A stretch of 58,226 bases of DNA. Origin: Jiangella asiatica (GTDB taxonomy: Bacteria > Actinomycetota > Actinomycetes > Jiangellales > Jiangellaceae). Shown one piece after another: positions 9,184 through 32,496 of this stretch; within the stretch, counting starts at the first letter, position 1, and each line of letters begins with the position of its first letter. The notes beneath the pieces were generated by a model that saw only the letters and a list, made by a program, of their open reading frames with translations, was not told where the DNA came from and did no database searches. Both the position numbers and the translations under genes were made by a program. Where the stretch lies: NCBI RefSeq assembly GCF_004349065.1, contig NZ_SMKZ01000043.1, positions 1-58,226 on the forward strand. Direction: 5' to 3'.

Positions 9184-9855
9184 TCACACAGGCGACGCCC
9201 GGTCCCGGAGCCGACGCACCATGAGCTGCGGACTGGCGAGGACGGGAACCCTCACCGATCCACGGCTTTCGATCAGATCGGCGGCAGGGGCCATGCTCGC
9301 CTGACCCAGGACGATGACGTCGACGCCGGTCATGGCCTCTGCCTCATCAGCGATCAGCTCATCGTGCCCGGACCGGTCACCTGCCCGTAGCGCCGCGAAG
9401 GCGTCCTCCCGTAGTCGCGGAGCCAGGGCGATTTCCGCGCCGAGTCGGGTTGAAACGACAGAGAACAGTTCGGTCTGCTGGCGCAGGCCCACAGCGACTG
9501 TGCCGATCAAGCCGATTCGCTCGCCCAGTCCGATGGCGGTCTCGACCAGGACCTCGTCGATGCTCAGTACCGGCAAGGCTGGGCGGCGCGCGGCGATTTG
9601 CGCAGTGGCCGCGGAGTAAGCGTTGCACGTCACGACGACGGCGTCGGTGCCGGCAGCGACGGCCAGCTCCACCAGATCGGCAAGGCGCTCAACGCAGAAG
9701 TCATCGACGCCGCCGCGTTGCTGGGCCAGCGGCAGCAAAGACTCGTCGAGAAGGTGGGTCGGCACCACACCCGCAGCCTCCCCGAAGTAGCGAGCGGTGG
9801 ACTCCATCGCTGGGACGACGGCGTGGATGAGTGTCACTCTCAGGTTCTCGGTCAT
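9184..9855 (-). CDS. Asp/Glu/hydantoin racemase family protein
   Basis: A 223-residue cytoplasmic protein of the aspartate/glutamate/hydantoin racemase fold. The first catalytic Cys is in VVTCNAY (C77), and GERIGLIGT, typical of the second domain, is near 110. At the place of the second Cys it has VIVLGQASM with Gln185, a variant common in a sub-branch whose chemistry is not classical two-base racemization. Its ATG overlaps the stop of the aldolase gene (ATGA), so it is the last gene of the long operon. It could act as an isomerase or decarboxylase of a malonate- or maleate-type acid; the substrate is unknown. Confidence 0.85.
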   Translation of the reverse strand: MTENLRVTLIHAVVPAMESTARYFGEAAGVVPTHLLDESLLPLAQQRGGVDDFCVERLADLVELAVAAGTDAVVVTCNAYSAATAQIAARRPALPVLSIDEVLVETAIGLGERIGLIGTVAVGLRQQTELFSVVSTRLGAEIALAPRLREDAFAALRAGDRSGHDELIADEAEAMTGVDVIVLGQASMAPAADLIESRGSVRVPVLASPQLMVRRLRDRASPV

Positions 9856-10514
9856 GAGGGGACGTCCTTTCCGGCGAGGTCAGCTTCGCCGTCGCGCAGC
9901 AGAGCGGCGCGAGCGGCCATGGGCACCGGACAATGGCTGCGCTCCCCGAGCAACAGGGCAAGCCGCGCGGTCTCCTCGAGCTCCTCGGCTCCGGCACAGG
10001 CTGCCTCGATGGTCTCGTCGGCGAAAATCGAACCGTGGTTCGCGAGCAGCAGGGCTCGATGCCCGGTGATCGCTCGTTCGACCTCCTCGACGAGCGCCGG
10101 CGAACCCGGCGCATGGAACCCGATCCGGCGAACGATCCCGAGCCGGATCAGCGAATACGCCGTCAGCGGTGGCAGCGCATCGTCGCCTGGCAGACCCTGG
10201 AGCATCGACCAGGCGACGGCTGCGGTCGAGTGCAGGTGGACCACCGCCCCGGCGTCGGTACGCCGCCGATACACCGCCGCGTGCAGAACCGCCTCCTTGG
10301 ACGGGCGGGGCCCAGCCAGGTGCTGGCCGTCCATTCGGACCAGTGAGAGACCATCTGGTTCGAGCCGGCCCAGCCGTGAGTTCGTCGGCGTCACGACCAC
10401 GCCCCGGGAGGTCACGACGCTCAGGTTGCCCGAGGTGCCCGGTGTCAGACCCAGATCGTGCAGCATCCGGCCAGTGGCGACCAACGCCTGCCGGGCCGAG
10501 TCCTCGTCGATCAC
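9852..10514 (-). CDS. otnC: OtnC-like class II aldolase/decarboxylase
   Basis: A 220-residue class II aldolase/adducin-domain enzyme. Zn ligands H93 and H95 (VVHLHS) and H160 (LLANHGS), and the catalytic Glu74 (PSKEA), are all visible, as is the phosphate-binding segment SGNLS at 28-32. Next to an OtnK-type kinase this family decarboxylates 3-oxo-tetronate 4-phosphate to dihydroxyacetone phosphate. The GTG start at 10514 is preceded by GGAGG and overlaps the kinase stop (GTGA). The pairing with OtnK supports the call; the true stereochemistry of the substrate cannot be read from sequence. Confidence 0.85.
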   Translation of the reverse strand: MIDEDSARQALVATGRMLHDLGLTPGTSGNLSVVTSRGVVVTPTNSRLGRLEPDGLSLVRMDGQHLAGPRPSKEAVLHAAVYRRRTDAGAVVHLHSTAAVAWSMLQGLPGDDALPPLTAYSLIRLGIVRRIGFHAPGSPALVEEVERAITGHRALLLANHGSIFADETIEAACAGAEELEETARLALLLGERSHCPVPMAARAALLRDGEADLAGKDVPS

Positions 10515-11782
10515 GAGATTTCCTCCAGCGCGGCGGCGAAGAAGTTTTCGTAGCCGAAGTTGCCCGACTTGAGTACGACACCGACGCGCCGCCCCGTCGG
10601 CGTCAGGCCGAAGGCAGCCGGCACGCCGGGCTGTACCTCGGCGCCGATGTCGAGGGCCCGCGTTCCGAGCGCCTGCACCACCGCTCCTGACGTCTCCCCG
10701 CCGGCGACGACGAACCGGCTGAAGCCGTCGTGCAGAAGGGCCGCGGCCAGCTCGCCGAAGGCGGCCTCGACCTCGGCGCTGTCCACATTCACCGTCGAGT
10801 GCTCGCCGCCGGCCTGCGGAGTCGAATAGACGAGGAGCGGCTCGGCTGGTTGCGAGCGAACCCACGCAAGGGCCTCTGCGACGGCCGCAGGTCGGCCGGC
10901 CTTCATCGCCAGGGCCAGTGGGAACGACCTCGCGGACTGGCGGAACACGGCCACCTGCGCAGCCGTAGCCGCCGAGCAGCTGCCGGCGAGCGCGACGGCT
11001 CGGCCCGGGTCCGCACATTCGACCGCCGGGGCGCGGCGGGAGTCGGGAGCTTCCGGGTTGTCGCGGACCGCCAGCAGCTGTCTGAGAATTTCAGCGGCAA
11101 GGGCCGACGCGCCGGTCGAGAGCGGCAACGGAGCGCACGCCTGGCCGAGCACGGCCAGGTCGTCGTCGGACACCGCGTCCAGGACGACATAGGTCGCCCC
11201 CGACGCAGCCGACACCTCGAGCTCCCGCTGCACCGCATCCGGCCCTTCGTGCACGGTGTCGATCGGCACGACCGCTGCGCGCCCCCTCGATTGCCGACCG
11301 ATCAGCGTCCGCAGATCCGATTCGCGCATCGGATTGATCGGGTGGTTCCTCATCGCGCTCTCGGCGAGCGGAACGCCGTGGACGAACAGGGTGCCGTGCA
11401 CGACGGTCCGGCCGTGCTCCGGGAGCGAGGGTGCAAGAACCGTGTAGGCGACGCCGAGCTCCCGCATGAGCGCGTCGGCGACCGGGCCGATGTTGCCGCG
11501 TGCGGTCGAGTCGAATGTCGCTGCGTACTTGAGGTAGAGCCGCTCGCATCCAGCGGCGCGCAGCCATCGGGCCGCGCGCAATGATTGCTCGATCGCCTCC
11601 TTCGGAGCAATGGATCGGGACTTCAGCGCGACGACCACTGCGTCCGCGTCCGTCGCTGTGCTCCGATCGGGCACGCCGACGTGCAGGGCCACGGTCGCGC
11701 CGTCGCGAACCAGTCGGCCAGCCAGGTCGACCGATCCGGTCAGGTCGTCGGCGATGCAGCCGAGAGCATGCGTCGCCCTCAT
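10511..11782 (-). CDS. otnK: OtnK-like four-carbon acid sugar kinase
   Basis: A 423-residue kinase of the former DUF1537 family. The N-terminal acid-sugar-binding domain opens with the hallmark ADDLTG (residues 11-16), and KYAATFDSTARGN is near 104. The C-terminal nucleotide-binding domain carries VAGGETSGAVV near 370. The family phosphorylates 3-oxo-tetronates (OtnK) or D-threonate/D-erythronate (DtnK/DenK). No PdxA2-like dehydrogenase is present and an OtnC is the next gene, so the OtnK reaction is more likely. It overlaps both neighbours by 4 bp. Confidence 0.88.
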   Translation of the reverse strand: MRATHALGCIADDLTGSVDLAGRLVRDGATVALHVGVPDRSTATDADAVVVALKSRSIAPKEAIEQSLRAARWLRAAGCERLYLKYAATFDSTARGNIGPVADALMRELGVAYTVLAPSLPEHGRTVVHGTLFVHGVPLAESAMRNHPINPMRESDLRTLIGRQSRGRAAVVPIDTVHEGPDAVQRELEVSAASGATYVVLDAVSDDDLAVLGQACAPLPLSTGASALAAEILRQLLAVRDNPEAPDSRRAPAVECADPGRAVALAGSCSAATAAQVAVFRQSARSFPLALAMKAGRPAAVAEALAWVRSQPAEPLLVYSTPQAGGEHSTVNVDSAEVEAAFGELAAALLHDGFSRFVVAGGETSGAVVQALGTRALDIGAEVQPGVPAAFGLTPTGRRVGVVLKSGNFGYENFFAAALEEIS

Positions 11783-12609
11783 GCCCGACCAGCCATGCTG
11801 CGCAGGAAGCGCAGCGCCCGCTCCGCCGCCACCGGGCTCGACGGCTTCTGCTCGATCTCGACCGACAACCAGCCCTGGTAGCCGAGGGCGCCGAGCACAC
11901 CCAGCACCTCCGGCCAGGGCACCAGCCCGCTGCCCGGCCAGCGCCGGTGCGAGTCCCCCACCTGCACATGCGCGAGGCGCCCCGCCAAGTGCGCCGCGAC
12001 CAGCGGCCCACCCAGGCTGCCTTCCTCCCCCATCATGTGGAAGGTGTCGACCTCCAGGGCCAGAGCCGAGCTGGGGAACCCGGCGGCGAAGTCCAGCACT
12101 TCCTCGACGGTGTTCAGCAGGTCGGTGGCCATTCGAGACTGCGGCTCCAGCAGGAAGGTTACGCCGGTGCCCGCGACATGCTCGACCAGGACATTCACAG
12201 TCTCGTGCAAGCGTTCGAGCGCGAGATCCCGGCTCCCCGCCGCCTTCGAGCCCCCACGGATGCTGCCGATCGCCACCGTCGCACCATGCTCCGCGGCGAA
12301 GTCGGCGATGCGCTTCAGTCTCTCGACCGTGGCCCGGCGGTTGTTCTCGTTCGACGCGGTCAACACCAGCCCGTCCGCCGCGGCCGGCCCGGTCGACACG
12401 CTGACGAGATCCAGTCCATGGTCGGCGAGCACCCGGGCGAAGTCGCTGGTGTCGAACCCGCGCGGGTCGCGCACCTGAACCTCGACGCCGCCGTAACCAA
12501 GCTCGGCCAAGGCGGCACAGACCCCACCGGCCGGGCCGGTCCAGGCGATCGGCATAACATCGACGTCAGGGCTGGCGATCGCATAGCACAAGCGGTCCAC
12601 GACGCTCAT
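11779..12609 (-). CDS. TIM-barrel sugar isomerase/epimerase, possible OtnI role
   Basis: A 276-residue xylose-isomerase-like TIM barrel. Metal and substrate elements seen are LEPQSR (about 147), LEVDTFHMM (about 178), HVQVGDSHRR (about 205) and SVEIEQKP near the C-terminus. ATG 12609 is chosen because it overlaps the MaoC stop and the preceding residues are not conserved in character. Members next to OtnK and OtnC (OtnI, a hydroxypyruvate-isomerase relative) interconvert 2-oxo- and 3-oxo-tetronates, which fits here. Other hydroxy-keto substrates remain possible. Confidence 0.8.
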   Translation of the reverse strand: MSVVDRLCYAIASPDVDVMPIAWTGPAGGVCAALAELGYGGVEVQVRDPRGFDTSDFARVLADHGLDLVSVSTGPAAADGLVLTASNENNRRATVERLKRIADFAAEHGATVAIGSIRGGSKAAGSRDLALERLHETVNVLVEHVAGTGVTFLLEPQSRMATDLLNTVEEVLDFAAGFPSSALALEVDTFHMMGEEGSLGGPLVAAHLAGRLAHVQVGDSHRRWPGSGLVPWPEVLGVLGALGYQGWLSVEIEQKPSSPVAAERALRFLRSMAGRA

Positions 12610-13061
12610 GCCTCGGCTCCTCGTACCGGGACGAGCGTGGTGTGCAGGCCGCACTGAACCACCTCGCCGTGCTGGTTCACCACCGCCAGCTCCTCGACGA
12701 CGACCCCGCGCGAGGGGTTCGTGCGGCTGCGCCGTGTCGACGTCACCCGGCATCGGACGTGGATGGTGTCACCGATGAAGATCGGTTCGAGGAACCTCCA
12801 CTCGTCCCAGCCCAGCGATGCCAGCCGAGCACCTTCCGCGGAACTCGCCCGCCAGGTGAGGCCCTGAGCGAAAGCCAGGCCCAGCAGGCCGTGCGCGATC
12901 CGCCGGCCGTGGATGCTGGCCGCGGCGTGAACCTCGTTCGTGTGGATCGCGGCGTAGTCGCCCGTAAGGCCGGCGAAGGCCACAATGTCGTGCTCAGTGA
13001 CAGTCCGTCCGGGGGTCGTGAACTCGTCGCCGACCGCAAGGTCCTCGAGGTAGTCCGTCAT
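12606..13061 (-). CDS. MaoC-family (R)-hydratase-like enzyme
   Basis: A 151-residue single hot-dog-domain protein. The hydratase 2 motif reads GLTGDYAAIH, with catalytic Asp35 and His40 kept, while the usual Asn-Pro before His is Ala-Ala. The family hydrates or dehydrates enoyl/3-hydroxyacyl-CoA thioesters or acts as a mesaconyl- or itaconyl-CoA-type hydratase. It overlaps both neighbours by 4 bp. With a CoA-transferase pair, a crotonase and an acyl-CoA dehydrogenase in the same operon, it probably handles a CoA ester of the imported acid. The start at 13061 matches the common beginning of the family. Confidence 0.87.
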   Translation of the reverse strand: MTDYLEDLAVGDEFTTPGRTVTEHDIVAFAGLTGDYAAIHTNEVHAAASIHGRRIAHGLLGLAFAQGLTWRASSAEGARLASLGWDEWRFLEPIFIGDTIHVRCRVTSTRRSRTNPSRGVVVEELAVVNQHGEVVQCGLHTTLVPVRGAEA

Positions 13062-13894
13062 GTGCTCTCCAGTTCGAGATCCAGCAGGGCTGCGGGATTG
13101 GTCGCCGCCATCCGATGGACGTCCTTCTCCGAAAGACCGCACTCGCGCAGCGCGCCGATGAACCGGCCGAAGCCGTCCACCGGGCGGCCGTTGTGCGCCT
13201 GGCCGAGATCGGACGTGAGCACGTTCGATGCGACGCCGACCTCGCCGATGCGCTCGGCGAGCTCGTGCACGGGAACCCGCCCGGGCTTGTCCGTGGTGTC
13301 GACAGCACAGCGCTCCATCAGCGCACCGACGGCCGCCAGCTCACGCTGAACGTCGACCGGCATCGCCACCTGGGCGGCGTCAGGGTGGTTGACCAGGACG
13401 CGGGTGACTCCGGCCGAGACCGCCTCCCCGACCAGCCGCACCGTCTCGGACACCGACAGATGACCGGTGGCGAGGATGGCGTCGTGGGCCGCCACCAGGT
13501 CGAGGATCCGCCGGACGTCCTGCGTGATCCGGCCCAGACCGTCCACGACCCTCAGGCCGCCCGAGCCGCCGGCGCGACGCCGATGGCTGGCCGCGTCCTC
13601 CGTGGGCATCCACACGCACCGCCCGCCGATCTCGAGGGCCACCCGTACTGCGGCTGGGTTCAACCCGCCCACCGGCTCGTTGAGCACAACGCCACCGAAG
13701 ACCCGCACCCCGTCGACCGCGTCGTCGGCGATCCGGGCCCGGTCAGCCGTCGGCAGAACGTGACACTTGAGCAGGATCGCTGCCATACCCGCGCCGGCAG
13801 CGTCGCGGGCTACGCCGAGGTCGTCGGCGTAGCGCGCCCTGACATCCGGGGAACTGTGCACATGCAGGTCGATCAGCCCCGCGACACCGCTCAC
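13058..13894 (-). CDS. DUF6282-type metal-dependent hydrolase-like protein
   Basis: A 278-residue amidohydrolase-like TIM barrel. Metal-site elements are LIDLHVHSSPD near the N-terminus (HxH), KCH near residue 52, ATGHLS (about 150), NHPD and TSDLGQ near 230. The layout matches the DUF6282 group, whose function is not established to my knowledge. The GTG start at 13894 overlaps the preceding gene (GTGA) and places the HxH close to the N-terminus, as expected. Within the operon it could open a lactone or ring. That role is inference. Confidence 0.75.
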   Translation of the reverse strand: MSGVAGLIDLHVHSSPDVRARYADDLGVARDAAGAGMAAILLKCHVLPTADRARIADDAVDGVRVFGGVVLNEPVGGLNPAAVRVALEIGGRCVWMPTEDAASHRRRAGGSGGLRVVDGLGRITQDVRRILDLVAAHDAILATGHLSVSETVRLVGEAVSAGVTRVLVNHPDAAQVAMPVDVQRELAAVGALMERCAVDTTDKPGRVPVHELAERIGEVGVASNVLTSDLGQAHNGRPVDGFGRFIGALRECGLSEKDVHRMAATNPAALLDLELEST

Positions 13895-14979
13895 AGCGCC
13901 ACCGGCCGTCCGACAGCCGCCGACTCGTAGACGGCCAGCGCCGCCGCGAGTGGCTGGAGGTTGTCCGCAGCCTCGTTCACGGCGGGCACCCCAGCGAGCA
14001 AGGACTGCGCGAAGTGCCGTTGGCACGACTCGAAGCTGCGCTGGTAGGCCTCGGCCGGCGGCAGCCCGCGGCGCGCGTCAGCGACCGACGTGCCGGAAGC
14101 GGTCGTCACCGACAACTGATCACCGGCGAAGGGGTCGAGCTCCAGCGTGCCGGCGTCACCCTCCAACACGAAGGGCTCGACGTTCCCGCGGATCAGACGG
14201 CGGTCCGTCCGGGTGACGGAGCCCCAGCTGATGTCGACGAGCGACCGCGCCCCTGAGACGTGCTCCAACTGGATCACCGCCCGGTCCTCGCCAACGACGA
14301 GTGGGCTGGTCCGATCGACAACCGCGTAGACGGAGCGGACCGGCCCCAGAAGCATGCGCAGCACGTCGATCAGGTGAATGCCCCACTCGAAGACGATGAG
14401 ACGTTCCATGGTGCGCGTGTACGGCTGGCGGACGAGCAACGAAGGAAGCCCGCCGTCGGGTGACGGGAGGACCAGGTCGCGGTGGCACGTGAAGGACGCG
14501 AACCGCGGCGAGCCCACCACCCCTTCTGCCAGGATTCGCGCCGCCTCCTGGTACCAGTCCCTCCACCGCCAGTTCTCGTTGACCACACAACGGACTCCCG
14601 CCTCTTCGCAGATGTGGATGACCTGCCGCGCCTCGGCAACCGTCGGGGTGAACGGCTTCTGGCAGAGCACGTGGAGGCCGCGGCGCGCCACGGCCGCCAC
14701 GTGCTCCACATGCAGTTCCGGAGGCGTGGCGACGTCGACGAAGTCAGCGCAGTCCCCGACGGCCGCCAAGGCGTCGTCGAGGCTCGCTGAGGCCACGGCT
14801 CCGGTCAGCCCGATCTCGTCGATGAGGCGCTGCGCCCGGTCCGGTTCCCGGTCGACAACGCCGACGATCCGCACCTCGTCGACGGCGCGCCAAGCCAGCG
14901 CTTGATGCGGTGCGATGCTGCCGGCGCCGAACATGATGCCCCGCAGCGGTTCCCCGGTCAGCCCCACTTGGTGCCCCAC
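13891..14979 (-). CDS. Gfo/Idh/MocA-family NAD(P) dehydrogenase
   Basis: A protein of about 362 residues with a Rossmann domain beginning IMFGAGSIAPHQ, a VVDREP segment after the second strand, and VATPPELH and CQKPFTPT (the EKP-like motif with Gln for Glu), the usual Gfo/Idh/MocA order. The family oxidizes or reduces hydroxyl groups on cyclic sugars and acid sugars. The start is either GTG 14979, inside the flavoprotein 3' end (22-bp overlap), or GTG 14967. It may replace the NAD-dependent dehydrogenase (OtnD/LtnD) that usually feeds OtnI/OtnK. Confidence 0.85.
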   Translation of the reverse strand: MGHQVGLTGEPLRGIMFGAGSIAPHQALAWRAVDEVRIVGVVDREPDRAQRLIDEIGLTGAVASASLDDALAAVGDCADFVDVATPPELHVEHVAAVARRGLHVLCQKPFTPTVAEARQVIHICEEAGVRCVVNENWRWRDWYQEAARILAEGVVGSPRFASFTCHRDLVLPSPDGGLPSLLVRQPYTRTMERLIVFEWGIHLIDVLRMLLGPVRSVYAVVDRTSPLVVGEDRAVIQLEHVSGARSLVDISWGSVTRTDRRLIRGNVEPFVLEGDAGTLELDPFAGDQLSVTTASGTSVADARRGLPPAEAYQRSFESCQRHFAQSLLAGVPAVNEAADNLQPLAAALAVYESAAVGRPVAL

Positions 14980-16679
14980 ATGTCAGCCCGCCGTGGCTTC
15001 CACTCGGGGTCGACCCGCAACCGCTGAACGGTCATCGTGTCGTCCTCGAAACCCACGAGCAGGGCGTCGAGCCAGCTGGCGTCGTCCCGGAACTCGTGAT
15101 CGACCCGATAGTGCCCGCCCCGGCTCTCCGTGCGCGTCAGCGCGGCGAGCCCGACGGCACGAGCGGTTGCGGTTGCATTGCGCAACTCCAAGGCGCGCAC
15201 CGCCTGCAGCGGGTCCGAGGCACCCAGCTTGGGCAGCGCGTCCGCCTCGATCTCGTCCAGAGTTTGCAACACCCGTTTCAGGCCGGCGGGGGTCCTTTCG
15301 ACCAGCAGTTCCTCCCACATCACCCGAGCCAGCCCGGCCATCGCCGGACCGGGCGCGACAGTGCCGGATCGGAGCCGGTCGACAACGGAGACGATCTCGT
15401 CCAGCGGCGCCAAGTCGGCCGCTGGGGGCGATCCGCGCCGCTTGGCCGCCAGCCGTCCGGCGCGAATACCGAACACCTGGGAGGAGACCAGCATCATCCC
15501 GCCGAGCCGGTCCGCCCCATGGGCACCGGCCGCGGCCTCGCCGATCGCGAACAGCCCCGGCACGCGAGACTCTCCGTTGACATCGACCCGGACCCCGCCG
15601 TTCGAGCAGTGGTGGAACAGCCCAACGTCGACAGAACCGCGGTCCCAATGCACGCCGCGGTACCGGTACCACTCACCTACGTCGGAGAACGGCCCGTTCT
15701 TCTCATCGGTGACCACCACGTCGACGTGTACGCCACCCGAGGCCGTCCCACGGCCTGCCCGGATCTCCCGGTGCATGGCGACATCGATGTAACGGGAGAT
15801 CTCGTCCCGCGTGCTGAAGGGCGTGTGTCGGCGCCGCTCGTCCTGTGCCTCCTCGACGGTGCGGCCGGACGGCAGGTATCGGTGGACGAACTCCTCGCCG
15901 TCGACGTTGGTCAACTGTGGTTGGTGGCGCCATAGCCAGCTCCCGACCAGGTTGGTGTTCGGACTAGTGGTGCCGACGAAAATCTGGTGGAACTCCATGT
16001 TCATCAGCTCCGCGCCGGCGTGTAGCGCCAGTGCATAGGCGTCGCCGGTCACGCATGATGGGTGGAAGCTGTGGGTGAACAACCGGCCCATGCCGCCGGC
16101 GGCGATGATCACGGACGAACACCGGATGTGCACGACCTTGCCACTCTTCTCGTCCACTGCAACCGCCCCGGCCACCTCGCCCGCCGGCGATGTGAGGACC
16201 CGCACTACAGCGAGGCGTTCCCGGACGTCGACAGTACTGCGCCGTACCAGCGACTCCAGCACGATCTTGATCGGCACGCCGTGCGTCTTCACCCCGTAGC
16301 CGTGGGCAAAGGTCGGCACCATGCCCCACTCGTCGAGGTCGTGCCGTGCGGCGGCCGCCTCCTCGACGACGACCCTGGCGATCTCGCGGTCGGCCATGCC
16401 CAACCCGGCCTGGAGGATGTCGCCGAAGACCTGCCCCTGACGGGTCTGGGCGCCGTCCCACTCTCCACTCCACGCGTCGTCGTAGCCGATCAGCCGCATG
16501 AGACCGATCTCGGAGAAGCCCGCTGCCGTGGCTCCGGCGCCCCGCGTCCCAATGGCACCGAACCGGCCCTTGACGGCCACGACCACCCTGGCACCAGCAC
16601 GGTGTGCTTCGAGGGCGGTGCGCATTCCCGCGCCGCCCGCACCGACGACGAGGACGTCGGTCTCGATCGTGTCAACCAT
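14958..16679 (-). CDS. Fumarate reductase/succinate dehydrogenase-like flavoprotein
   Basis: A 573-residue FAD protein. It has DVLVVGAGGAGM at residue 8 (dinucleotide fold), GTRGAGATAAG where succinate dehydrogenase carries its covalent-FAD His region, an MEFHQ substrate segment, NGGVRVD and VPGLFAIGEAAAGAHGADRLGG near residue 385, then VFGIRAG. The start at 16679 has GAGAGG upstream. No iron-sulfur or membrane-anchor subunit lies nearby, and the flavin-linking His appears absent, so it resembles soluble relatives that desaturate or reduce other acids. A role in a redox step of the imported acid is inferred. Confidence 0.85.
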   Translation of the reverse strand: MVDTIETDVLVVGAGGAGMRTALEAHRAGARVVVAVKGRFGAIGTRGAGATAAGFSEIGLMRLIGYDDAWSGEWDGAQTRQGQVFGDILQAGLGMADREIARVVVEEAAAARHDLDEWGMVPTFAHGYGVKTHGVPIKIVLESLVRRSTVDVRERLAVVRVLTSPAGEVAGAVAVDEKSGKVVHIRCSSVIIAAGGMGRLFTHSFHPSCVTGDAYALALHAGAELMNMEFHQIFVGTTSPNTNLVGSWLWRHQPQLTNVDGEEFVHRYLPSGRTVEEAQDERRRHTPFSTRDEISRYIDVAMHREIRAGRGTASGGVHVDVVVTDEKNGPFSDVGEWYRYRGVHWDRGSVDVGLFHHCSNGGVRVDVNGESRVPGLFAIGEAAAGAHGADRLGGMMLVSSQVFGIRAGRLAAKRRGSPPAADLAPLDEIVSVVDRLRSGTVAPGPAMAGLARVMWEELLVERTPAGLKRVLQTLDEIEADALPKLGASDPLQAVRALELRNATATARAVGLAALTRTESRGGHYRVDHEFRDDASWLDALLVGFEDDTMTVQRLRVDPEWKPRRADMWGTKWG

Positions 16680-16714
16680 GGAAACCTCTCTGCGGAAACG
16701 GGCCGCCGACACGC

Positions 16715-18882: not shown

Positions 18883-20063
18883 CGGACCGCTCCGGAGTCC
18901 CGCAGCTCCCGGATCCCGGCGTCGTCGAAACCGGCGGCGCGGAGGATGTCGTCGGTGTGCTCGCCGACGGTAGGTGGAAACCGGTCGATCGACGCCGGAG
19001 TCGCGCTGAGCTTGATCGGCTGCCCGACCAGCGCAGCGGTGTGCCCGGCGCCGTCGGCGACCTCCTGGATCATGTCGTTCTCCGCCACCTGCGGGTCCGC
19101 CGCCAGGTCCGCGTAGTCGTAGACGGGCGAGCAGATCACGTCGTGCTCTCGCAGTCGGGCCAGCCAGTGGCCGGTGGGGCGGGTGCGGAACGCTTCCTCG
19201 AGCAGGTCGACGAGCTCCCGCCCGTGCCGGGCCTGGTCCTGCTTCGTCGCGAATCGCTCGTCGCCGCTGAGGTCATCGATGCCGAGGATCCGGCACAGCA
19301 GCCCGAGCGGATTGTCGTCGCGCACGAAGACCATGACCAACTGCAGGAGACCGTCGGCGGTGCGGTAGATGGACATCAGCGGGTCGTGAATCTGACCCAC
19401 CGGCTCGCGTGTGTTGAGGTGGGTCGTGAACGACTCGATGTTCGAGAAGATCGCTGCGTCGAACAACGACAGGTCCACCCGTTGGCCCACACCGGTCGCG
19501 TGCCGGGCGATCAGCGCAAGCAGAATGCCTTGCACCATCACCATGCCGCCGAAGGAGTCCATGATCGACGTCCGGGCGGGGAACGGCTTCGTTCCGGGGT
19601 CGCCGTTGCCGAACACGAACCCCGACATCGCCTGCGCCACCCGGTCCTGCCCGCCGAGCGCCGCATAGGGGCCGGTCCGGCCGTATCCGGATCCGGCGAC
19701 GTAGATCACCCGAGGGTTTCGGCTCCGCAATGTCTCGTAGTCCAGACCCAGCCGCTCGGCCACGCCGGGGCGGAAATTCTGGACGACCACATCGGCGTCC
19801 TGGACGAGTCTCAGCAGTACGTCCTGCCCCGCCTCGCTGCGCAAATCGATCGCGATACTGCGTTTGTTCCGGTTGCGGGAGAGGAACCGCGTGCTGAAGC
19901 CGCGCCACCGCGGGTGCGTCTCGTTGCCTCGTCCGGGCTCCCCGGACGGCGCCTCGACCTTGATCACGTCGGCGCCGAAATCCCCCAGGACCTGCGTGCA
20001 GATCGGCCCGAACATCCAGATCGAGAGGTCGAGGACGCGGATTCCGTCGAGCGGGCGGTTCAT
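18879..20063 (-). CDS. CaiB/BaiF family III CoA-transferase, copy 2
   Basis: Also 394 residues, with the same architecture as copy 1: GPICTQVLGDFGADVIKVE, SRNRNKRSI, NFRPGVAERLG and GGQDRVAQAMSG, again with Asp at position 140. AGGAAGGAA precedes the ATG. It is the first of the pair in transcription order and follows the crotonase by 24 bp. Both copies keep all visible motifs, so neither looks decayed. It probably activates the carboxylate brought in by TctABC; the CoA donor is unknown. Confidence 0.9.
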   Translation of the reverse strand: MNRPLDGIRVLDLSIWMFGPICTQVLGDFGADVIKVEAPSGEPGRGNETHPRWRGFSTRFLSRNRNKRSIAIDLRSEAGQDVLLRLVQDADVVVQNFRPGVAERLGLDYETLRSRNPRVIYVAGSGYGRTGPYAALGGQDRVAQAMSGFVFGNGDPGTKPFPARTSIMDSFGGMVMVQGILLALIARHATGVGQRVDLSLFDAAIFSNIESFTTHLNTREPVGQIHDPLMSIYRTADGLLQLVMVFVRDDNPLGLLCRILGIDDLSGDERFATKQDQARHGRELVDLLEEAFRTRPTGHWLARLREHDVICSPVYDYADLAADPQVAENDMIQEVADGAGHTAALVGQPIKLSATPASIDRFPPTVGEHTDDILRAAGFDDAGIRELRDSGAVR

Positions 20064-20087
20064 CGTCTGTTCCTTCCTGCCATGACG

Positions 20088-20906
20088 TCAGCGGCCGGTG
20101 AACCGTGGTGGGCGCTTCTCCGCATAGGCCGCAATGCCTTCCGCCCGGTCGGCCGAGGCGTCGACGCGCCGCTTGACCGGGTCGTAGAGGTGCCATGCCA
20201 GCGGCGGGTAGTTGAGCGGCATGTCCATGCCCCGGACCGCCAACTCCTTCGCCGCCTGCACGGCCAGCGGGGCGTTTCGCGCCAACCGATCGGCGAACTC
20301 CGCAGTGGCCCCTGAGAGCTCGGTGGCCACTACGGCCCGGTTGGCCAGTCCGATCTCGTACGCCCGGCGACCGTCGATGGACTGCCCCAGCAGAAGCATC
20401 TCCATGGCCAGGTTCTGCGGCACCTTGCGCGGCAGCGTGAAGTGGCTCGACCCGGCCGGCCAGCCGCGGGTCACCTCCGGCAGTCCGAATGAGGCGTCCT
20501 CGGCGGCGACGATGAAGTCGCAGTTCAGCGCCAGCTCGAACCCGCCGCCGAGGCAGTAGCCACGGACGCTGGCGACGATCGGCTTCCACACCCCCTGAGG
20601 GAGGTCGCCGGAGTTCATGTTCGACAGATGCCCGAACGGGTCCCGCCGTCCCGCCCGGCGGCGGTCCTCATAGGAGGCGAAGTCCGCAGCGGCCGTGGCC
20701 TCCTCCTTCAGGTCCCAGCCGGCGCAGAATGCGCGGTCGCCGGCTCCCTGGACCACGATCACCCACACGTCGTCGTCGCCGTCGGCCTCGCGGACCGCTG
20801 AGACCAGCTCGGTCTGGGTCCGCGGCCGGATGGCGTTCATGACCTCAGGCCGGTCGATCGTGAGCCACAGCACGTGGCCCTCGGCCTTTCGTTGGATGTC
20901 GGTCAC
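20088..20906 (-). CDS. Enoyl-CoA hydratase/isomerase (crotonase) family
   Basis: A 272-residue crotonase. The oxyanion-hole segments (CAGWDLKEE at 61 and YCLGGGFELAL at 118) and both acidic residues of true hydratases are present (Glu124 and Glu144 in GLPEV). The GTG at 20906 is preferred because GAGAGGGG lies at the right distance. An upstream ATG at 20936 adds 10 residues but has no ribosome binding site. With both Glu kept, hydration of an enoyl-CoA is the most likely reaction. It is placed between the transporter genes and the CoA-transferases. Confidence 0.9.
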   Translation of the reverse strand: MTDIQRKAEGHVLWLTIDRPEVMNAIRPRTQTELVSAVREADGDDDVWVIVVQGAGDRAFCAGWDLKEEATAAADFASYEDRRRAGRRDPFGHLSNMNSGDLPQGVWKPIVASVRGYCLGGGFELALNCDFIVAAEDASFGLPEVTRGWPAGSSHFTLPRKVPQNLAMEMLLLGQSIDGRRAYEIGLANRAVVATELSGATAEFADRLARNAPLAVQAAKELAVRGMDMPLNYPPLAWHLYDPVKRRVDASADRAEGIAAYAEKRPPRFTGR

Positions 20907-20963
20907 CGGGGCACCCCTCTCATTCGGTTCTGTCATGTGGGTCGACGCCTGTGTTCGGGCCGG

Positions 20964-22460
20964 TCAATCCACGTCCTCCAGGACGGCGGACTTGCGTTCG
21001 GGGTTGCGGACGTACACCCACACGCCGCGCACGATGAGTACAATCGCCGCGATCATCAGGACGGCCGAGATTGGCCGGGTGAAGAAGATCGTGTACGCAC
21101 CGTGCGACGTGGCCAGGGACTGGCGCAGCGACGACTCCACCAGCTGGGCCAGGACAGCTGCCAGCACCAAAGGGGCCAATGGGATCTCGAGTTTGCGCAT
21201 GAGGTATCCGACGACGCCGAAGATGAGCATGACCCAGACGTCGAACATCGAGTTGCGGACGCTGTAGGCGCCGATGATCGAGAAGACGACGATCAGCCCG
21301 GCGAGTGCCGGGAACGGAATTTTCGCGAGCCTGGCCCAGATGCCCACTAGGGGAAGGTTGAGGATCAGCAGAACGACGTTCCCGATGTACATGCTGGCGA
21401 TCAGGGCCCACAGGATGTCGGGGTGCTCGGTGAACATCCTCGGACCCGGCTGGATGCCATAGATCATGAACGCGCCGAGCAGGACCGCCATGGTGGCACC
21501 GGACGGGATTCCCAAGGCGAACAGCGGCACGAAGCCGCCACTCACCGCCGCGTTGTTGGCCCCTTCCGCAGCCGCGACTCCGGCGATCTCGCCCTTGCCG
21601 AAGTTCTTCCCTCGCTTCGAGACCCTGCGCTCGACGTCGTAGGCGATCATCGTGCTGACGACCGGGGTGCAACCCGGCAGCAGGCCGAGGAAAAAGCCGG
21701 TGACCGACGACCGCAGGGCCGGTGCAGCCGACTCCTTGAGGTCGTGGCGCGTCGGCAGCCATCGGGTGACCGCCATCTCGTAGATCCGTTTGACGTCCTT
21801 CTCGACGTTGAACAACACCTCGCCGACGGCGAACAGGCCGATGATGATCGCGACATAGTTCAGGCCGGCAGACACCGCGTCGATCCCGAACGTCAACCGC
21901 GTGCCGCCGGAGTAGGCGTCCACGCCGATGAGCGCCACCAGCATGCCCAAGGCGGCACTGGCGACACCTTTCAGCAGCGTCCGCCCCGACAGCGTGATCA
22001 CCAGACTGAACGCCACCATCAACAGGGCGAAGTACTCGGGTGGCCCGAATTCGAGCGCCCACCGGGCGAGTGCCGGCGCGAAGACCGACAGCCCGACCAG
22101 CGAGATACTGCCGGCGACGAAGGACGATATCGCCGCCACAGCCAGCGCCGGCCCGGCGCGGCCCTTCTTGGCCAGCTCGTACCCGTCCAAGGCCGTGATG
22201 ACCGACGTCGCCTCGCCCGGGATGTTGGCCACGATGGCCGTGGTCGACCCGCCGTACATGGCGCCGTAGTAGATCGCCGCCATCATGATGATCGCGCCGG
22301 CCGGTGGGACCACCGTGGTCAAGGGGATGAGAACGGCGATCCCAGCGGTCGGGCCGATGCCCGGCAGGACGCCGATGAGCGTGCCGAGGATCGCACCGAT
22401 CACCGCGTACAGCAGGTTCTCTGGCGAGAGCGCGGCCTGGAAACCGTCCAGCAGCTCCAT
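20964..22460 (-). CDS. tctA: Tripartite tricarboxylate transporter large permease
   Basis: A 498-residue multi-span membrane protein with the TctA signatures GVLPGIGPTAGIAVLIP near residue 30, YYGAMYGGSTTAIVANIPGE near 64 and a second GLLPGCTPVVS repeat near 265. It forms the channel of a secondary tripartite carboxylate importer with TctB and the periplasm-type receptor TctC. A GGGGGG site precedes the ATG. Four bases separate it from TctB. Substrates of this family range from citrate to aromatic acids, so specificity cannot be read here. Confidence 0.95.
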   Translation of the reverse strand: MELLDGFQAALSPENLLYAVIGAILGTLIGVLPGIGPTAGIAVLIPLTTVVPPAGAIIMMAAIYYGAMYGGSTTAIVANIPGEATSVITALDGYELAKKGRAGPALAVAAISSFVAGSISLVGLSVFAPALARWALEFGPPEYFALLMVAFSLVITLSGRTLLKGVASAALGMLVALIGVDAYSGGTRLTFGIDAVSAGLNYVAIIIGLFAVGEVLFNVEKDVKRIYEMAVTRWLPTRHDLKESAAPALRSSVTGFFLGLLPGCTPVVSTMIAYDVERRVSKRGKNFGKGEIAGVAAAEGANNAAVSGGFVPLFALGIPSGATMAVLLGAFMIYGIQPGPRMFTEHPDILWALIASMYIGNVVLLILNLPLVGIWARLAKIPFPALAGLIVVFSIIGAYSVRNSMFDVWVMLIFGVVGYLMRKLEIPLAPLVLAAVLAQLVESSLRQSLATSHGAYTIFFTRPISAVLMIAAIVLIVRGVWVYVRNPERKSAVLEDVD

Positions 22461-22463
22461 GGC

Positions 22464-23009
22464 CTACCCCCCGACCAACGAGGCGATGAGGTTGTCGACC
22501 GGCCCGGCGGGCAGCTGGACGTCCAGAAGAGCGACGAACACCAGCGAGCCGGCCACGCCGGAGGCCAGCCCCCACGCCACCGCGCGCAGGATCGAACCCC
22601 GGTCCAGCGCCCATTCGACTCCGGCCACGAACACGGCTGTCGCCACCGCCATGCCGAATCCAACCAGCACCTGGGCGTAGGCGACGAAGGCCGCCGTGGC
22701 AAGACCCACCCGCCTCCAGCCCTTGGCCGTCGGCCAGTCCAGGACGCCTCCGGCCCCCTTGTACCGCAGCGCGGCGACGATCAGTCCGAGACCGCAGACG
22801 ACCAGAGCCGCGGACAGGAAGACAGGTACCGTGCGCGGGTCCAGCCGCTCGGAGAGCCCGGGCCGGCTCCTGACAGCCTGGCTCAACACCAGGGTCCCGA
22901 TGACGGCGAGCCCCGCGCCCGCGGCGATGTCCGCCGTCCGTCTGGCGATGACGTTCCGCGGCTCTGCGCTGTCGTCCGGCACGGTCTCGGCCTGGTCGTC
23001 CACGCTCAC
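22464..23009 (-). CDS. tctB: Tripartite tricarboxylate transporter small permease
   Basis: A 181-residue membrane protein with four predicted spans after a polar N-terminal tail, typical of TctB. It starts with GTG overlapping the stop of tctC. RLDPRTVPVF near residue 56 fits the semi-conserved TctB motif. It works with TctA as the membrane part of the importer. Confidence 0.9.
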   Translation of the reverse strand: MSVDDQAETVPDDSAEPRNVIARRTADIAAGAGLAVIGTLVLSQAVRSRPGLSERLDPRTVPVFLSAALVVCGLGLIVAALRYKGAGGVLDWPTAKGWRRVGLATAAFVAYAQVLVGFGMAVATAVFVAGVEWALDRGSILRAVAWGLASGVAGSLVFVALLDVQLPAGPVDNLIASLVGG

Positions 23010-23995
23010 TGCTCCAGCGCCTCTTCGACCAGCGGCGTGTAGATCGCCGTCTCCTCCGCGATCCGCTCCGCCGCATCGTCGGCGCCGAGCGTGAACGTCA
23101 ACCCCGCCTGCTCCTCGATGGCGGCCTTGACCGACTCGTCGTTCGCCGCCGCCAGCACGGCCTCCTCGAGCTTCGCGACGATCTCGTCGGGGGTGTCGGC
23201 GGCAACACCGAGGCCGCGCTCCGTGTACTGCACGAGCTCGACGCCTTGCTCTGTGAAGGTCGGCACATCCGGGTAGTAGAAGTAGCTGTCCTCGGACGAG
23301 ATCGCCAGCATGGTCCCCTCGTCCTTGTACGCGGCGAAGTCGCCGGCATCGGTGACGATGGCGTCGACCTGACCCCCCAGAAACGCCGTGATCTGCGCCG
23401 AGCCGCCTTCGAACGACACGTACTCGAACGAGGTGTCGGTCAGTTCCTGCAGCCGCAGCGTCAGCAGGTTGGAAGCGGTGAACGAGCCCGTGCCGCCGAT
23501 GGTCAGCGTGCCGGGGTTCGCCCGCGCCGCCGCCAGGAGCTCGTCGAGGCTGGTGTACGGGCTGTCCGGCGGCACGACCAGGCCCAGGGCGGAACCCTGG
23601 ACGATGGCGACGGTCTTTATGTCGTCCGCCGTGTACAGGGCGTCAGGAAGCAGCGGCTGGACGATGTTCTGCGGGAGACTGGAGACCGTGATCATGTAGC
23701 CGTCGGCCGAAGCGTCCGCGATGGCCTTCCAGCCCACCGCGCCGCCGGCACCCTCCATGTACTCGATGTTCACGTTCTGCCCAAGCAGTTCCTGCAGGAT
23801 CGGCTGCTGGAGCCGAGCCAGCCGGTCGTTGCCGCCGCCGGGAGCGAACCCGATGAGATAGGTGATCGGCTCAGCCGGCCAGTTCGAGCTGCTGATCGCA
23901 CCGTCGCCGCCGTCCGCACCCGAGTCAGTGCTGGCGCATGCGGTCAGCAACGCGCTCCCGATGAGTAAAACCGCGAGTCCTCTGATGAGTCGCAT
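23006..23995 (-). CDS. tctC: TctC solute-binding lipoprotein
   Basis: A 329-residue receptor of the tripartite tricarboxylate family. Signal peptide with lipobox LLTAC (Cys20), then an Asp/Gly linker, PITYLIGFAPGGGNDRLAR (the typical first ligand loop), GGTGSFTASN and FEGGSAQITAFLGGQVDA. AGAAAGAGGAA lies before the ATG, a strong site. A 70-bp gap to the aldo/keto reductase gene could hold an internal promoter, though none is clear. It binds the carboxylate outside the membrane and delivers it to TctAB. Confidence 0.95.
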   Translation of the reverse strand: MRLIRGLAVLLIGSALLTACASTDSGADGGDGAISSSNWPAEPITYLIGFAPGGGNDRLARLQQPILQELLGQNVNIEYMEGAGGAVGWKAIADASADGYMITVSSLPQNIVQPLLPDALYTADDIKTVAIVQGSALGLVVPPDSPYTSLDELLAAARANPGTLTIGGTGSFTASNLLTLRLQELTDTSFEYVSFEGGSAQITAFLGGQVDAIVTDAGDFAAYKDEGTMLAISSEDSYFYYPDVPTFTEQGVELVQYTERGLGVAADTPDEIVAKLEEAVLAAANDESVKAAIEEQAGLTFTLGADDAAERIAEETAIYTPLVEEALEQ

Positions 23996-24065
23996 GGTTC
24001 CTCTTTCTTCCGATGCTCGAAGCCATCGGCCGGCGGGTCGCTACGATGAGCGCCCGGCGATCCGA

Positions 24066-24878
24066 TCAATCGAAGTGGTAGGTCCCTGCGCGCCCGTCCA
24101 GCCGCACCATCTGCTCATCGGTCAGCTCGACGTGGTCGACGTCGATGTTCTGCGCGATCCGGTCGCGCGCCGACGAGCGGAAGAGGATCGACCAGGAACG
24201 CCGCAGATGCCATCGGACGATGACCTGCGCCGGTGTTGCGCCCGTCTCCGACGCCACCGCCAGCAGCACGGCATCGTCCAGTCTGGCCCGCCGGAGCGGC
24301 GTGTAGGCGCTGATCAGCACGTCACGCACAGCGAGCTCTCGGGCCACGTCGGCGTCGTACAGGAAGGGGTTCCACCGGATCTGGTTCACCACCGGCGGAA
24401 CACCTGTGGCGGTGGCGATCTGGTCGATCTGTCCGACCGCGAAGTTGCTCACTCCTATGTCCGCGACCAGCCCCGCGTCACGGAGCTGGATCATCGCCTC
24501 CCAGGACGGCACTAGCCCAGGGCCCTCCACCGGCCAGTGCATGAGCCACAGGTCGAGCCTTTCAATCTGCAGCTGCTGGAGTGTGCGCTCCAACGCTTCG
24601 CGCTCGCGGCCGATGCAACGCAGAGGCAGCTTCGACGTGAGGAACAGCTCGCCCCGCGGAACCCCGGACCGGGCCAGGGCGAGCCCGAGGTCGCCCTCGT
24701 TCTCGTACGAGGTAGCGGTGTCGAAATGCCGTATCCCGGCGTCGACGGCCCACCCGATCGCCTGCTGGCCGGACTCACCGTGCAGCTGGTATGTGCCGAA
24801 ACCGAGCAAGGGCAGACTCCGGCCGGAACTCAAAGTGGCCGTCAGCTCGGCGGCCGAGGAGGTAGGTGCCGGTGTCAT
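24066..24878 (-). CDS. Aldo/keto reductase
   Basis: A 270-residue (beta/alpha)8 NADPH-dependent oxidoreductase. The full catalytic tetrad is visible: D53, Y58 (HFDTATSYENEG), K83 (LTSKLP) and H114 (WLMHWPVEG). Its length and the GVSNF segment near 147 match the AKR5-like group. The ATG overlaps the stop of the acyl-CoA dehydrogenase gene. It could reduce a keto group of a pathway intermediate or of a toxic aldehyde; no substrate can be assigned. Confidence 0.93.
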   Translation of the reverse strand: MTPAPTSSAAELTATLSSGRSLPLLGFGTYQLHGESGQQAIGWAVDAGIRHFDTATSYENEGDLGLALARSGVPRGELFLTSKLPLRCIGREREALERTLQQLQIERLDLWLMHWPVEGPGLVPSWEAMIQLRDAGLVADIGVSNFAVGQIDQIATATGVPPVVNQIRWNPFLYDADVARELAVRDVLISAYTPLRRARLDDAVLLAVASETGATPAQVIVRWHLRRSWSILFRSSARDRIAQNIDVDHVELTDEQMVRLDGRAGTYHFD

Positions 24879-26011
24879 GGCAGTACCGCCTTGGCGATGA
24901 TGTTGCGCTGGATCTCGCTGGTTCCTTCGTACAGCGTTCCGAGAATCGCGTCTCGCACGTATCGCTCGACCGGGTGATCACGCAAGTAGCCGTGGCCACC
25001 GAGGATTTGCACCGCCTCGCGGGTCACGTCCACAGCGGTCTCCGAGGCGACCAGCTTGGCCATGGATGCCAGCCGGCCCGTCTCGGCCCGAGAGGCGCCG
25101 GCGTCGAATGCCTCTGCGCTGGCGTACACGAGCCGGCGGGCCGCCTCGGTTCGTGTCGCCATGTCTGCGAGCTTCCACCGGATGCCCTGGAACTGCGCGA
25201 TCGGCCGGCCCGACTGGTACCGCTCCCGTGCGTACTCAGCCGCATACGACATCGCCGCGACGGCACAGCCGACCGAGGCGGCCGCCACCACCGGACGGTT
25301 GCGCTGGACAGCGTCCATCGCGGCGGCGAATCCGCCATCCTGATCGCCGACCATTCGGCGGGCCGGCACCCTCAGGCCGTCGAGCCGGATATCGCAGTTG
25401 GGCACGCCGCGGGCGCCCATCATGTCGTTGACACGTTCCACCTTCCAGCCCTGGTCGGCGGTGTCGACGACGAAGGCGCCGATTCCACCTCCGCTTTCGG
25501 CCTCGCTCGTCCGCGCGAAGACCAGGGCGAAGTCGGCCTGACTCCCCCAGGAGATGAAGCTCTTCAAACCGTCGATGACCCAGTCCCCTGCGTCGCGAAC
25601 CGCACGAGTGGTCATGCGAGACGGGTCGGAGCCGGCCTCCGGCTCAGTCATGCAGATGGCGGTGAGGTGGCGGCCCGTGGCGAGGTCCGGCAGGAGCTCC
25701 GCCTTCAGTACGTCACTACCGTGCCGGGCGACTGCACCGGCCAGCGTGCCGTTCTGGTTGGCCAGCTGGGCAGCTGCCATCGAGCCTGCGGCAGCGATCT
25801 CCTCCCGGGCGATCACCGCCGACATCACGTCGCCGCCGGGGCCGCCGTATTCCACGGGCACCGGCAACTGCACGAGGCCCATGTCGGCGAAGGTGTCCAC
25901 GAGACCGGACGGGATCGCGTCGCCGCGGTCGATGGCGTCGGCAATGGGGCCGACGTGTGCGGCCGCCATGCGCCGAACTGCACCCCTGAAGTCGCTGTGC
26001 TCGGAGGACAC
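24875..26011 (-). CDS. Acyl-CoA dehydrogenase
   Basis: A 378-residue FAD enzyme and first gene of the long operon. Motifs seen are AICMTEPEAGSDPSR (about 125), WVIDGLKSFIS (about 157), GRPIAQFQGIRWKLADM, QILGGHGYLRDHPVERYVRDA and TLYEGTSEIQRNII, which includes the catalytic Glu of YEGT. It introduces a double bond alpha-beta to a CoA thioester and passes electrons to an electron-transfer flavoprotein. It starts with GTG and has GGGAAGGGA about 11 bp upstream. With the crotonase and MaoC protein it forms a beta-oxidation-like module. Confidence 0.94.
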   Translation of the reverse strand: MSSEHSDFRGAVRRMAAAHVGPIADAIDRGDAIPSGLVDTFADMGLVQLPVPVEYGGPGGDVMSAVIAREEIAAAGSMAAAQLANQNGTLAGAVARHGSDVLKAELLPDLATGRHLTAICMTEPEAGSDPSRMTTRAVRDAGDWVIDGLKSFISWGSQADFALVFARTSEAESGGGIGAFVVDTADQGWKVERVNDMMGARGVPNCDIRLDGLRVPARRMVGDQDGGFAAAMDAVQRNRPVVAAASVGCAVAAMSYAAEYARERYQSGRPIAQFQGIRWKLADMATRTEAARRLVYASAEAFDAGASRAETGRLASMAKLVASETAVDVTREAVQILGGHGYLRDHPVERYVRDAILGTLYEGTSEIQRNIIAKAVLP

Positions 26012-26810: not shown

Positions 26811-26827
26811 GCGTCCGTCCACCTCAC

Positions 26828-26840
26828 CACACCCAGTGTG
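26828..26840. promoter_or_regulatory. Inverted repeat at the crp start
   Basis: A perfect CACAC-CCA-GTGTG dyad lies 18-30 bp before the preferred start. Crp/Fnr proteins bind dyads with GTG half-sites, so this may be an autoregulatory site. The short 3-bp spacing is unlike the classical 6-bp CRP spacing. Confidence 0.4.
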
Positions 26841-32483: not shown

Positions 32484-32496
32484 GGTCGGCGCGTTC

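Follow-up and report, generated by a model that had tools for sequence, protein, structure and literature searches.

A seventeen-gene operon of Jiangella asiatica that combines carboxylate import, CoA chemistry and four-carbon acid-sugar genes

Results

Gene content and layout of the operon

We analyzed a 58,226-nucleotide stretch of Jiangella asiatica DNA (RefSeq assembly GCF_004349065.1, contig NZ_SMKZ01000043.1, positions 1 to 58,226; hereafter the window), in which 17 minus-strand genes follow one another from 26011 down to 9184 and bring together a tripartite tricarboxylate transporter (TTT), coenzyme A (CoA) chemistry and four-carbon acid-sugar (tetronate) genes. The gene count and the shared direction are those of the original prediction for this locus, and Pfam supported the family of each of the 17 proteins, including every one named in that prediction, whose inventory covered 16 of them and omitted the aldo/keto reductase (24066-24878). 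Domain calls were made at Pfam cut-offs and curated-family calls at NCBIfam model cut-offs, and all coordinates and strands refer to window positions. From the first gene to the last, the operon comprises:

24875..26011, minus: acyl-CoA dehydrogenase, 378 amino acids, first gene (PF00441/PF02770/PF02771)
24066..24878, minus: aldo/keto reductase, 270 amino acids (PF00248)
23006..23995, minus: TctC solute-binding protein (PF03401)
22464..23009, minus: TctB small permease subunit (PF07331, 50.1 bits, cut-off 29.1)
20964..22460, minus: TctA large permease subunit (PF01970, 514.7 bits)
20088..20936, minus: crotonase (enoyl-CoA hydratase/isomerase; PF00378, 172.5 bits)
18879..20063, minus: class III CoA-transferase CaiB-1, 394 amino acids (PF02515, 380.4 bits, cut-off 23.3)
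17698..18882, minus: class III CoA-transferase CaiB-2, 394 amino acids (PF02515, 385.7 bits, cut-off 23.3)
16715..17701, minus: NHL six-bladed propeller, resembling peptidylglycine amidating lyase (PAL-like; PF01436)
14958..16679 (alternative GTG start 16718), minus: fumarate-reductase/aspartate-oxidase-like flavoprotein, 573 amino acids (PF00890, FAD_binding_2; PF02910, Succ_DH_flav_C)
13891..14934 (alternative starts 14967, 14979), minus: Gfo/Idh/MocA dehydrogenase (PF01408)
13058..13861 (alternative start 13894), minus: DUF6282 protein (PF19799, 222.3 bits, cut-off 26.8)
12606..13061, minus: MaoC-type hydratase, 151 amino acids (PF01575, 74.5 bits)
11779..12609, minus: xylose-isomerase-like TIM-barrel isomerase/epimerase (PF01261, AP_endonuc_2)
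10511..11782, minus: OtnK, predicted 3-oxo-tetronate 4-kinase (NF043035; Pfam SBD_N/NBD_C)
9852..10514, minus: OtnC-like class II aldolase/3-oxo-tetronate-4-phosphate decarboxylase (NF043034, below cut-off; Pfam Aldolase_II)
9184..9855, minus: Asp/Glu-racemase-type protein (PF01177, 57.1 bits)

With the starts chosen here, nine of the 16 junctions are 4-bp overlaps and seven are gaps (3, 23, 24, 27, 29, 35 and 70 bp); the overlaps would rise to 11 if GTG starts were taken for the flavoprotein (16718) and for DUF6282 (13894), and the ten counted originally are close to either figure. The widest gap, 70 bp, separates the aldo/keto reductase from TctC, which makes this reductase and the acyl-CoA dehydrogenase the least certain members of the operon. 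The G+C content of the operon (0.667-0.709 in 2-kb blocks) lies inside the range of the window (0.659-0.725).

A curated match identifies the tetronate kinase

The product of the kinase gene exceeds the cut-off of the curated model NF043035 (444.8 vs 350 bits), the sole tetronate gene to clear an equivalog cut-off, and its solved relatives are 5dmh, 3dqq and 1yzy; on this model match we annotate it as 3-oxo-tetronate kinase, OtnK, which upholds its earlier naming. The adjacent protein, earlier called OtnC, falls under its own cut-off (NF043034, 209.4 vs 250 bits) and is termed OtnC-like here; it is 40% identical to Escherichia coli YgbL, and E74, H93, H95 and H160, which we take to be class II aldolase metal-site residues, are the same in both. 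As to the TIM-barrel isomerase, described before as OtnI-like, neither curated cut-off is reached, and it scores nearer to IolO (5-keto-L-gluconate epimerase; 160.6 vs a cut-off of 300 bits) than to OtnI (43.6 vs 325 bits). What survives of that description is a YgbM-type pattern: E155, D188, Q216 and E251 (Glu, Asp, Gln, Glu), presumably the metal ligands, align with identical residues of E. coli YgbM, and TM0416, the best solved relative, has a His at the Gln position.

The racemase-type protein has a single TCN cysteine and, at what we take to be the place of the expected second cysteine motif, LGQAS. It has no informative solved relative (best E-value (E) 0.031), and its plasmid relatives occur in mixed contexts (2 of 43 records examined). 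We tie it to the tetronate genes because a 30% identical relative sits beside OtnK and OtnC in another genus of the same family (G016; L107 8130-12950, minus strand), where genes for a 2-hydroxyacid dehydrogenase, an isomerase (26%), the racemase-type protein, OtnK and OtnC are adjacent and the contig ends with a 47-residue DUF6282 match (E 4e-4). This cluster also holds a family-11 binding protein gene. Three more OtnK loci were found in the class; each includes OtnC, and one a YgbM-like gene.

Import and CoA-chemistry genes

TctC, TctB and TctA are encoded by adjacent genes and all score above their Pfam cut-offs, as expected of a TTT importer; TctC has an N-terminal LLTAC lipobox (read by eye), and its solved relatives are TctC/Bug proteins. 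The two CaiB proteins are 55% identical to each other, and both retain the Asp that aligns with the catalytic Asp of E. coli Frc (Asp169), a hallmark of class III CoA-transferases. The pair may serve two carboxyl groups, or the two proteins may assemble as a heteromer, and the solved chains matched by CaiB-1 include benzylsuccinate CoA-transferase (9fn0). For three further enzymes the best NCBIfam models stayed under their cut-offs, these being acryloyl-CoA reductase for the acyl-CoA dehydrogenase (323 vs 640 bits), whose YEGTSEIQR stretch presumably carries the usual catalytic Glu, a 2,5-didehydrogluconate reductase-like model for the aldo/keto reductase, and DpgD for the crotonase.

A PAL-like propeller and an unusual flavoprotein

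The NHL protein is indeed a propeller, as had been predicted; its likeness to PAL is an addition of the present analysis. Both have the six-bladed propeller fold, with 24% identity over the structural alignment, and the lactonase match lies about 7 Z units under the PAL match. Six residues (R47, H74, Y154, H186, R200 and H290) are invariant in 14 of 14 aligned sequences, its own included, and the three His among them could bind metal. The alignment with PAL stops with propeller residue 201 at 707 of chain 5wm0, which puts R200 at 706 if there is no gap between, and Tyr154 was placed by position; so placed, Arg200 would coincide with the Arg of the catalytic Tyr/Arg pair of PAL, and Tyr154 would fall close to the Tyr (Tyr651/Arg703 in the human enzyme; PMC10303134). 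The operon propeller differs from PAL in its setting among CoA genes, in having no signal peptide visible by eye and in its company, as no copper hydroxylase (PHM) Pfam domain occurs among the 17 operon proteins; because this partner is lacking from the operon, we call the protein PAL-like rather than PAL.

The flavoprotein keeps just half of the fumarate-binding residues. In all eight members of its family (its own sequence included) that were aligned with E. coli FrdA and NadB, the HPTG and TE motifs (FrdA H232, T244 and E245) and the His that links flavin adenine dinucleotide (FAD) are replaced; we take the first three to be the substrate site and assume the role of the FAD-linking His, which is also missing from NadB. 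The best curated model, TfrA, gave 225.6 bits against a cut-off of 718 (697-amino-acid open frame scanned). Unlike FrdA, SdhA and L-aspartate oxidase in these motifs, and with no iron-sulfur partner gene in the operon, the protein is best assigned to a separate, little-known subfamily, whose close members among the matches listed come from jgi, lgn and metagenome-assembled genome (MAG) sources.

The nearest plasmid relatives of the Gfo/Idh/MocA protein are 32-35% identical (best 20 matches), and in 3 of 3 plasmid loci examined (of 252 records) a four-carbon acid sugar kinase and OiaX lie nearby, which presumably links these loci to apiose. The DUF6282 protein opens with DLHVHSSPD, to our reading an amidohydrolase-like motif; no solved relative was found by sequence at E ≤ 0.1, and a literature search found no paper on DUF6282. 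Plasmid DUF6282 genes (L110, L114, L115) were seen beside TRAP or TTT genes and aldolase/citrate-lyase-family genes, with dihydroorotate-dehydrogenase genes in two of the three.

Conservation of the gene combination

Relatives of the propeller, the flavoprotein and OtnK recur on contigs of the same size and source, their co-location being read from identical contig size plus source tag, not from contig sequence. Contigs of 9,740 bases (source lgn) hold relatives of all three (propeller P0002, 76% identical; flavoprotein P0122, 79%; OtnK P0243, 61%), as do contigs of 18,125 bases (source jgi; P0006, 54%; P0124, 67%; P0283, 48%), and a 5,313-base size (jgi) is common to propeller P0005 and flavoprotein P0123. 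Exact coincidences of at least 5 kb numbered 3, 2 and 2, compared with about 0.13, 0.08 and 0.07 expected (118, 119 and 119 relatives among the matches listed). Below 5 kb, the same listed relatives gave 2, 0 and 2 versus about 0.66, 0.65 and 0.68 expected; these four (about 2.0 expected) were not counted, as three differ in source tag, leaving one same-tag pair (2,827 bases, jgi, P0090/P0213). Judged by these relatives, the gene combination is not a one-genome accident; this evidence covers the propeller, the flavoprotein and OtnK.

Among related genomes, the flavoprotein was confined to its own: one hit among 60 relatives, one among 22 genomes of the family, of which 12 belong to the genus (E ≤ 1e-60), and one among 393 genomes of the class (E ≤ 1e-80; three best candidates per genome scored), samples that overlap and include its own genome. 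By this count the operon is rare in the class. At 1e-60 the propeller was found in 2 of 396 phylum genomes, the one other than its own at 42% identity.

Farther away, gene orders in Chloroflexota resemble the CoA part of the operon. One contig (G821) carries, on one strand, Opp permeases, CaiB, CaiB, crotonase, the flavoprotein (53%) and a family-5 binding protein, so that Opp importer genes stand in place of TctCBA; no OtnK match occurs in the stretch examined. In a SAR202 MAG (L006 12257-19325), the flavoprotein (44%) is followed by Gfo/Idh/MocA, facing three tandem crotonases and two CaiB genes, and a third locus (G933) reads binding protein, CaiB, flavoprotein (45%), MaoC, MaoC. From these three orders, the importer and the hydratase next to CaiB and the flavoprotein seem to be interchangeable. 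CaiB, crotonase or MaoC lies near 6 of 9 flavoprotein relatives at ≥38% identity compared with 11 of the 74 less similar ones (Fisher p 0.002), or 5 of 6 and 9 of 41 in loci of at least 15 kb (p 0.006), where the 38% line was set after the data had been seen, three extra Chloroflexota loci were added as close relatives, and L094 and L095 count as one longer locus. A profile search of genome contigs with the flavoprotein alignment gave no relative above 47% among the matches listed, and most of the at least 80 loci lie in other contexts. Since identity between CaiB-1 and the aligned Chloroflexota CaiB proteins is only about 28-31%, and one of a pair (L095 2723-3931, minus strand) is without the catalytic Asp, we claim CaiB co-occurrence at the family level only. 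The Asp is likewise missing from the BbsE subunit of benzylsuccinate CoA-transferase.

Two other neighborhoods of flavoprotein relatives were observed, an aconitase X gene divergent from the relative in Chloroflexi RBG_16_60_22 (L007 8579-9859, minus strand) and, in an Arachidicoccus MAG (L032 10001-12146, plus strand), an NHL protein (31%) encoded immediately after a distant relative (32%) and in the same orientation.

Regulation and genomic surroundings

Directly upstream of the operon lie:

26058-26076 and 26090-26108, minus: two 19-base direct repeats, 79% identical, 32 bases start to start, within the 109 bp that precede the first gene
26121..26852, minus: Crp/Fnr-type regulator (PF00027, PF13545), directly upstream of the operon and on the same strand

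The repeat pattern matches both repeats with 0 mismatches, and three other sites in the 7.03-Mb genome fall within three mismatches, each with three, compared with four for the reversed-pattern control; the repeats are a candidate operator, nothing more, and the Crp/Fnr-type protein is a candidate regulator of the operon. Promoter and terminator scans gave no excess over chance, and Rfam reported nothing in the window at gathering scores. ARAGORN called a tRNA-Leu (cag) at 26732-26821 on the plus strand, opposite the start of the Crp-type gene; as no tRNA in the window reaches those Rfam scores, this call is probably false.

Farther upstream on the same strand (26946-33525, minus) are genes for a LacI regulator, a GATase1-like protein, an M20 peptidase, an ABC permease and ATPase, and a sugar-binding-type protein, and at 4059-8373 (plus) a convergent ABC importer set ends with an enolase-superfamily gene (mandelate racemase type). 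Searches of 11 congeners found neither the GATase1-like gene (28032-28787; E ≤ 1e-60) nor the enolase-superfamily gene (7096-8373; E ≤ 1e-120). Because both flanking genes tested are thus also confined to their own genome among the 12 of the genus, there is no comparable empty site and the region looks accessory and catabolic. At 33899-36034, long open frames run on both strands (706 amino acids on plus, 672 on minus), with no Pfam match for either.

Discussion

A possible single pathway and its nearest alternative

The gene set, the curated match of OtnK, the relatives of the kinase, the propeller and the flavoprotein on same-size contigs, and the residue patterns described above were the basis on which we considered what the operon may do. 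We give even chances to the reading that its genes serve a single catabolic pathway, for a carboxylic acid bearing a four-carbon acid-sugar unit, the reactions and substrate of which we infer. TctCBA would import the carboxylate, the CaiB pair would activate a single carboxyl group or both with CoA, desaturation of the activated acid would fall to the acyl-CoA dehydrogenase and the flavoprotein, and the crotonase and MaoC would hydrate it. The PAL-like propeller would then split a hemiketal- or hemiaminal-type carbon to release an oxo-tetronate, which the isomerase would turn into 3-oxo-tetronate, for OtnK to phosphorylate and OtnC to decarboxylate to dihydroxyacetone phosphate. This order, from import and CoA activation through desaturation, hydration and cleavage to a tetronate branch, is the one proposed originally; it is plausible, with OtnK identified by its curated match and the other steps read from protein families.

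Formation of the oxo-tetronate by cleavage fits because the known types of tetronate dehydrogenase, for which we take the LtnD and DenD families, are missing from the operon. Given one pathway, that the propeller performs the cleavage is a tentative assignment, with the chances rather against it. Somewhat more doubtful still is the new route that it would imply, namely that an intracellular PAL-like propeller, the flavoprotein and the CoA hydratases carry out an oxidative dealkylation without oxygenase or copper, cutting a C-O or C-N bond in carboxylated polyhydroxy compounds and releasing tetronate for OtnK and OtnC.

Three points weigh against a single pathway that proceeds by cleavage. Gfo/Idh/MocA or the aldo/keto reductase could oxidize free tetronate instead; the SAR202 stretch, like the other Chloroflexota contig, has the CoA core without an OtnK match; and all four other OtnK-OtnC loci found in the class are without the CoA core in the 13-19 kb examined, with no Tct, CaiB, crotonase, acyl-CoA dehydrogenase or flavoprotein match in any of them and one weak MaoC match (31%, L106). 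The conservation on which the original prediction had staked its single pathway is thus seen in part, the two sets of same-size, same-tag contigs and the CaiB-CaiB-crotonase-flavoprotein order in Chloroflexota standing in its favor and these four loci against it. Because of the four loci, we keep a minority share of probability for two co-inherited pathways housed in the same operon. One would break down a dicarboxylate by way of CoA, with TctCBA, the acyl-CoA dehydrogenase, both CaiB proteins, the crotonase, the flavoprotein and MaoC; the other would salvage tetronate separately, with Gfo, the isomerase, OtnK, OtnC and the racemase-type protein. They would be induced together since their acids would co-occur, for example in decaying plant matter. 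Such a split is at odds with the two further contig sizes that propeller, flavoprotein and OtnK relatives share at different divergence, and with the position of MaoC inside the tetronate half, where its gene overlaps those of DUF6282 and the isomerase by 4 bp each.

Comparison with known systems

The tetronate half of the operon resembles the bacterial D-erythronate/L-threonate pathway (OtnI, OtnK, OtnC) in its OtnK, the adjacent OtnC-like protein and an isomerase with YgbM-type residues, and differs in having no LtnD- or DenD-type dehydrogenase, in an isomerase nearer to IolO, and in adding a CoA module, a TTT importer and the racemase-type and DUF6282 genes. It shares with D-apiose/isoapionate clusters (OiaK, OiaX) the nearness of Gfo/Idh/MocA to a four-carbon acid sugar kinase, as seen in the three plasmid loci, whereas those clusters have an ABC importer and OiaX and the operon kinase is OtnK, scoring 92.3 bits with the OiaK model against a cut-off of 700. 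The product of the D-erythronate/L-threonate pathway is dihydroxyacetone phosphate, as stated in the accessible part of PMC12540250.

A precedent for the upstream half is offered by 3,3'-thiodipropionate catabolism in Variovorax paradoxus TBEA6, in which, as we read the route, a CoA-transferase, a dehydrogenase and hydratases cleave a heteroatom-bridged dicarboxylate. Its CoA-transferase is, we presume, of class III. The available sections of the source hypothesize a TTT or TRAP importer, with a succinyl-CoA-dependent CoA-transferase and suspected acyl-CoA dehydrogenases, and report that loss of two enoyl-CoA hydratases abolished growth on thiodipropionate, the whole route being a hypothesis (PMC6370202). 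The bond is C-S there, the FAD protein Fox has been reassigned to 2-hydroxy acids, and those sections make no mention of a tetronate kinase, a PAL-like propeller or Gfo (PMC6370202).

With the CaiB-rich catabolism of recalcitrant organic matter proposed for SAR202 and other Chloroflexota, the operon shares the flavoprotein, Gfo, crotonases and CaiB found together in the SAR202 MAG. Many CaiB/BaiF paralogues are described in SAR202, and the hypothesis differs in being centered on Baeyer-Villiger monooxygenases, with neither an operon-type flavoprotein nor OtnK mentioned in the portion of the paper at hand (PMC5395668).

Less likely alternatives

Another reading, which we consider unlikely, is hydrolytic release, in which DUF6282 would be a metal-dependent hydrolase that cuts an ester, amide or lactone, Gfo would oxidize the acid sugar so released to supply OtnK, the acyl half would be degraded by the CaiB, dehydrogenase and hydratase enzymes, and the NHL protein would be a lactonase. 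The hydrolase role is a guess, given the lack of a DUF6282 paper or solved relative in the searches above, and the lactonase match ranks well under that of PAL.

More improbable still is degradation of a succinate-type acid (as with itaconate, methylsuccinate or benzylsuccinate) with the tetronate genes handling a side product. The class III CoA-transferase pair, acyl-CoA dehydrogenase and hydratases are as in such pathways, and the 9fn0 chains among the CaiB-1 matches agree with it. Set against this, the scores for RipB/Ich (MaoC, 73.8 vs 340 bits) and mesaconate CoA-transferase (CaiB-1, 194 vs 700 bits) fall under their cut-offs, the flavoprotein lacks the H232/T244/E245 site, and the 17 genes include neither an HpcH-type lyase, the type that we take the itaconate lyase to be, nor MmgE/PrpD. 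The itaconate cluster has both, according to the available part of PMC12290011. We rejected ascorbate breakdown via oxalyl-threonate (the 17 genes include no oxalyl-CoA decarboxylase, and the model for formyl-CoA transferase stayed under its cut-off), C-glycoside deglycosylation (partner subunit missing among the 17) and free apionate (the kinase is not OiaK).

Significance

Every enzyme family in the operon is known, and so is the kind of design, with a carboxylate importer, a CoA-transferase cassette and a sugar-acid module; the greatest novelty lies in a possible intracellular PAL-like cleavage. The literature search (open-licence papers) listed no paper that seems to describe OtnK/DUF1537 with CaiB and a TTT importer, a shared cluster, or NHL with the flavoprotein and a CoA-transferase. 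If the operon encodes one pathway, it would join class III CoA-transferase chemistry to four-carbon acid-sugar catabolism, a link that this search did not find. It would also give the PAL-like propeller, DUF6282 and a little-known subfamily of flavoproteins an intracellular role that can be tested. As a related CaiB-crotonase-flavoprotein core occurs with other importers in SAR202 and other Chloroflexota, the same chemistry, if the proposal is true, may act on refractory dissolved organic matter, and would thus bear on the way in which carboxyl-rich organic matter that resists degradation comes under attack.

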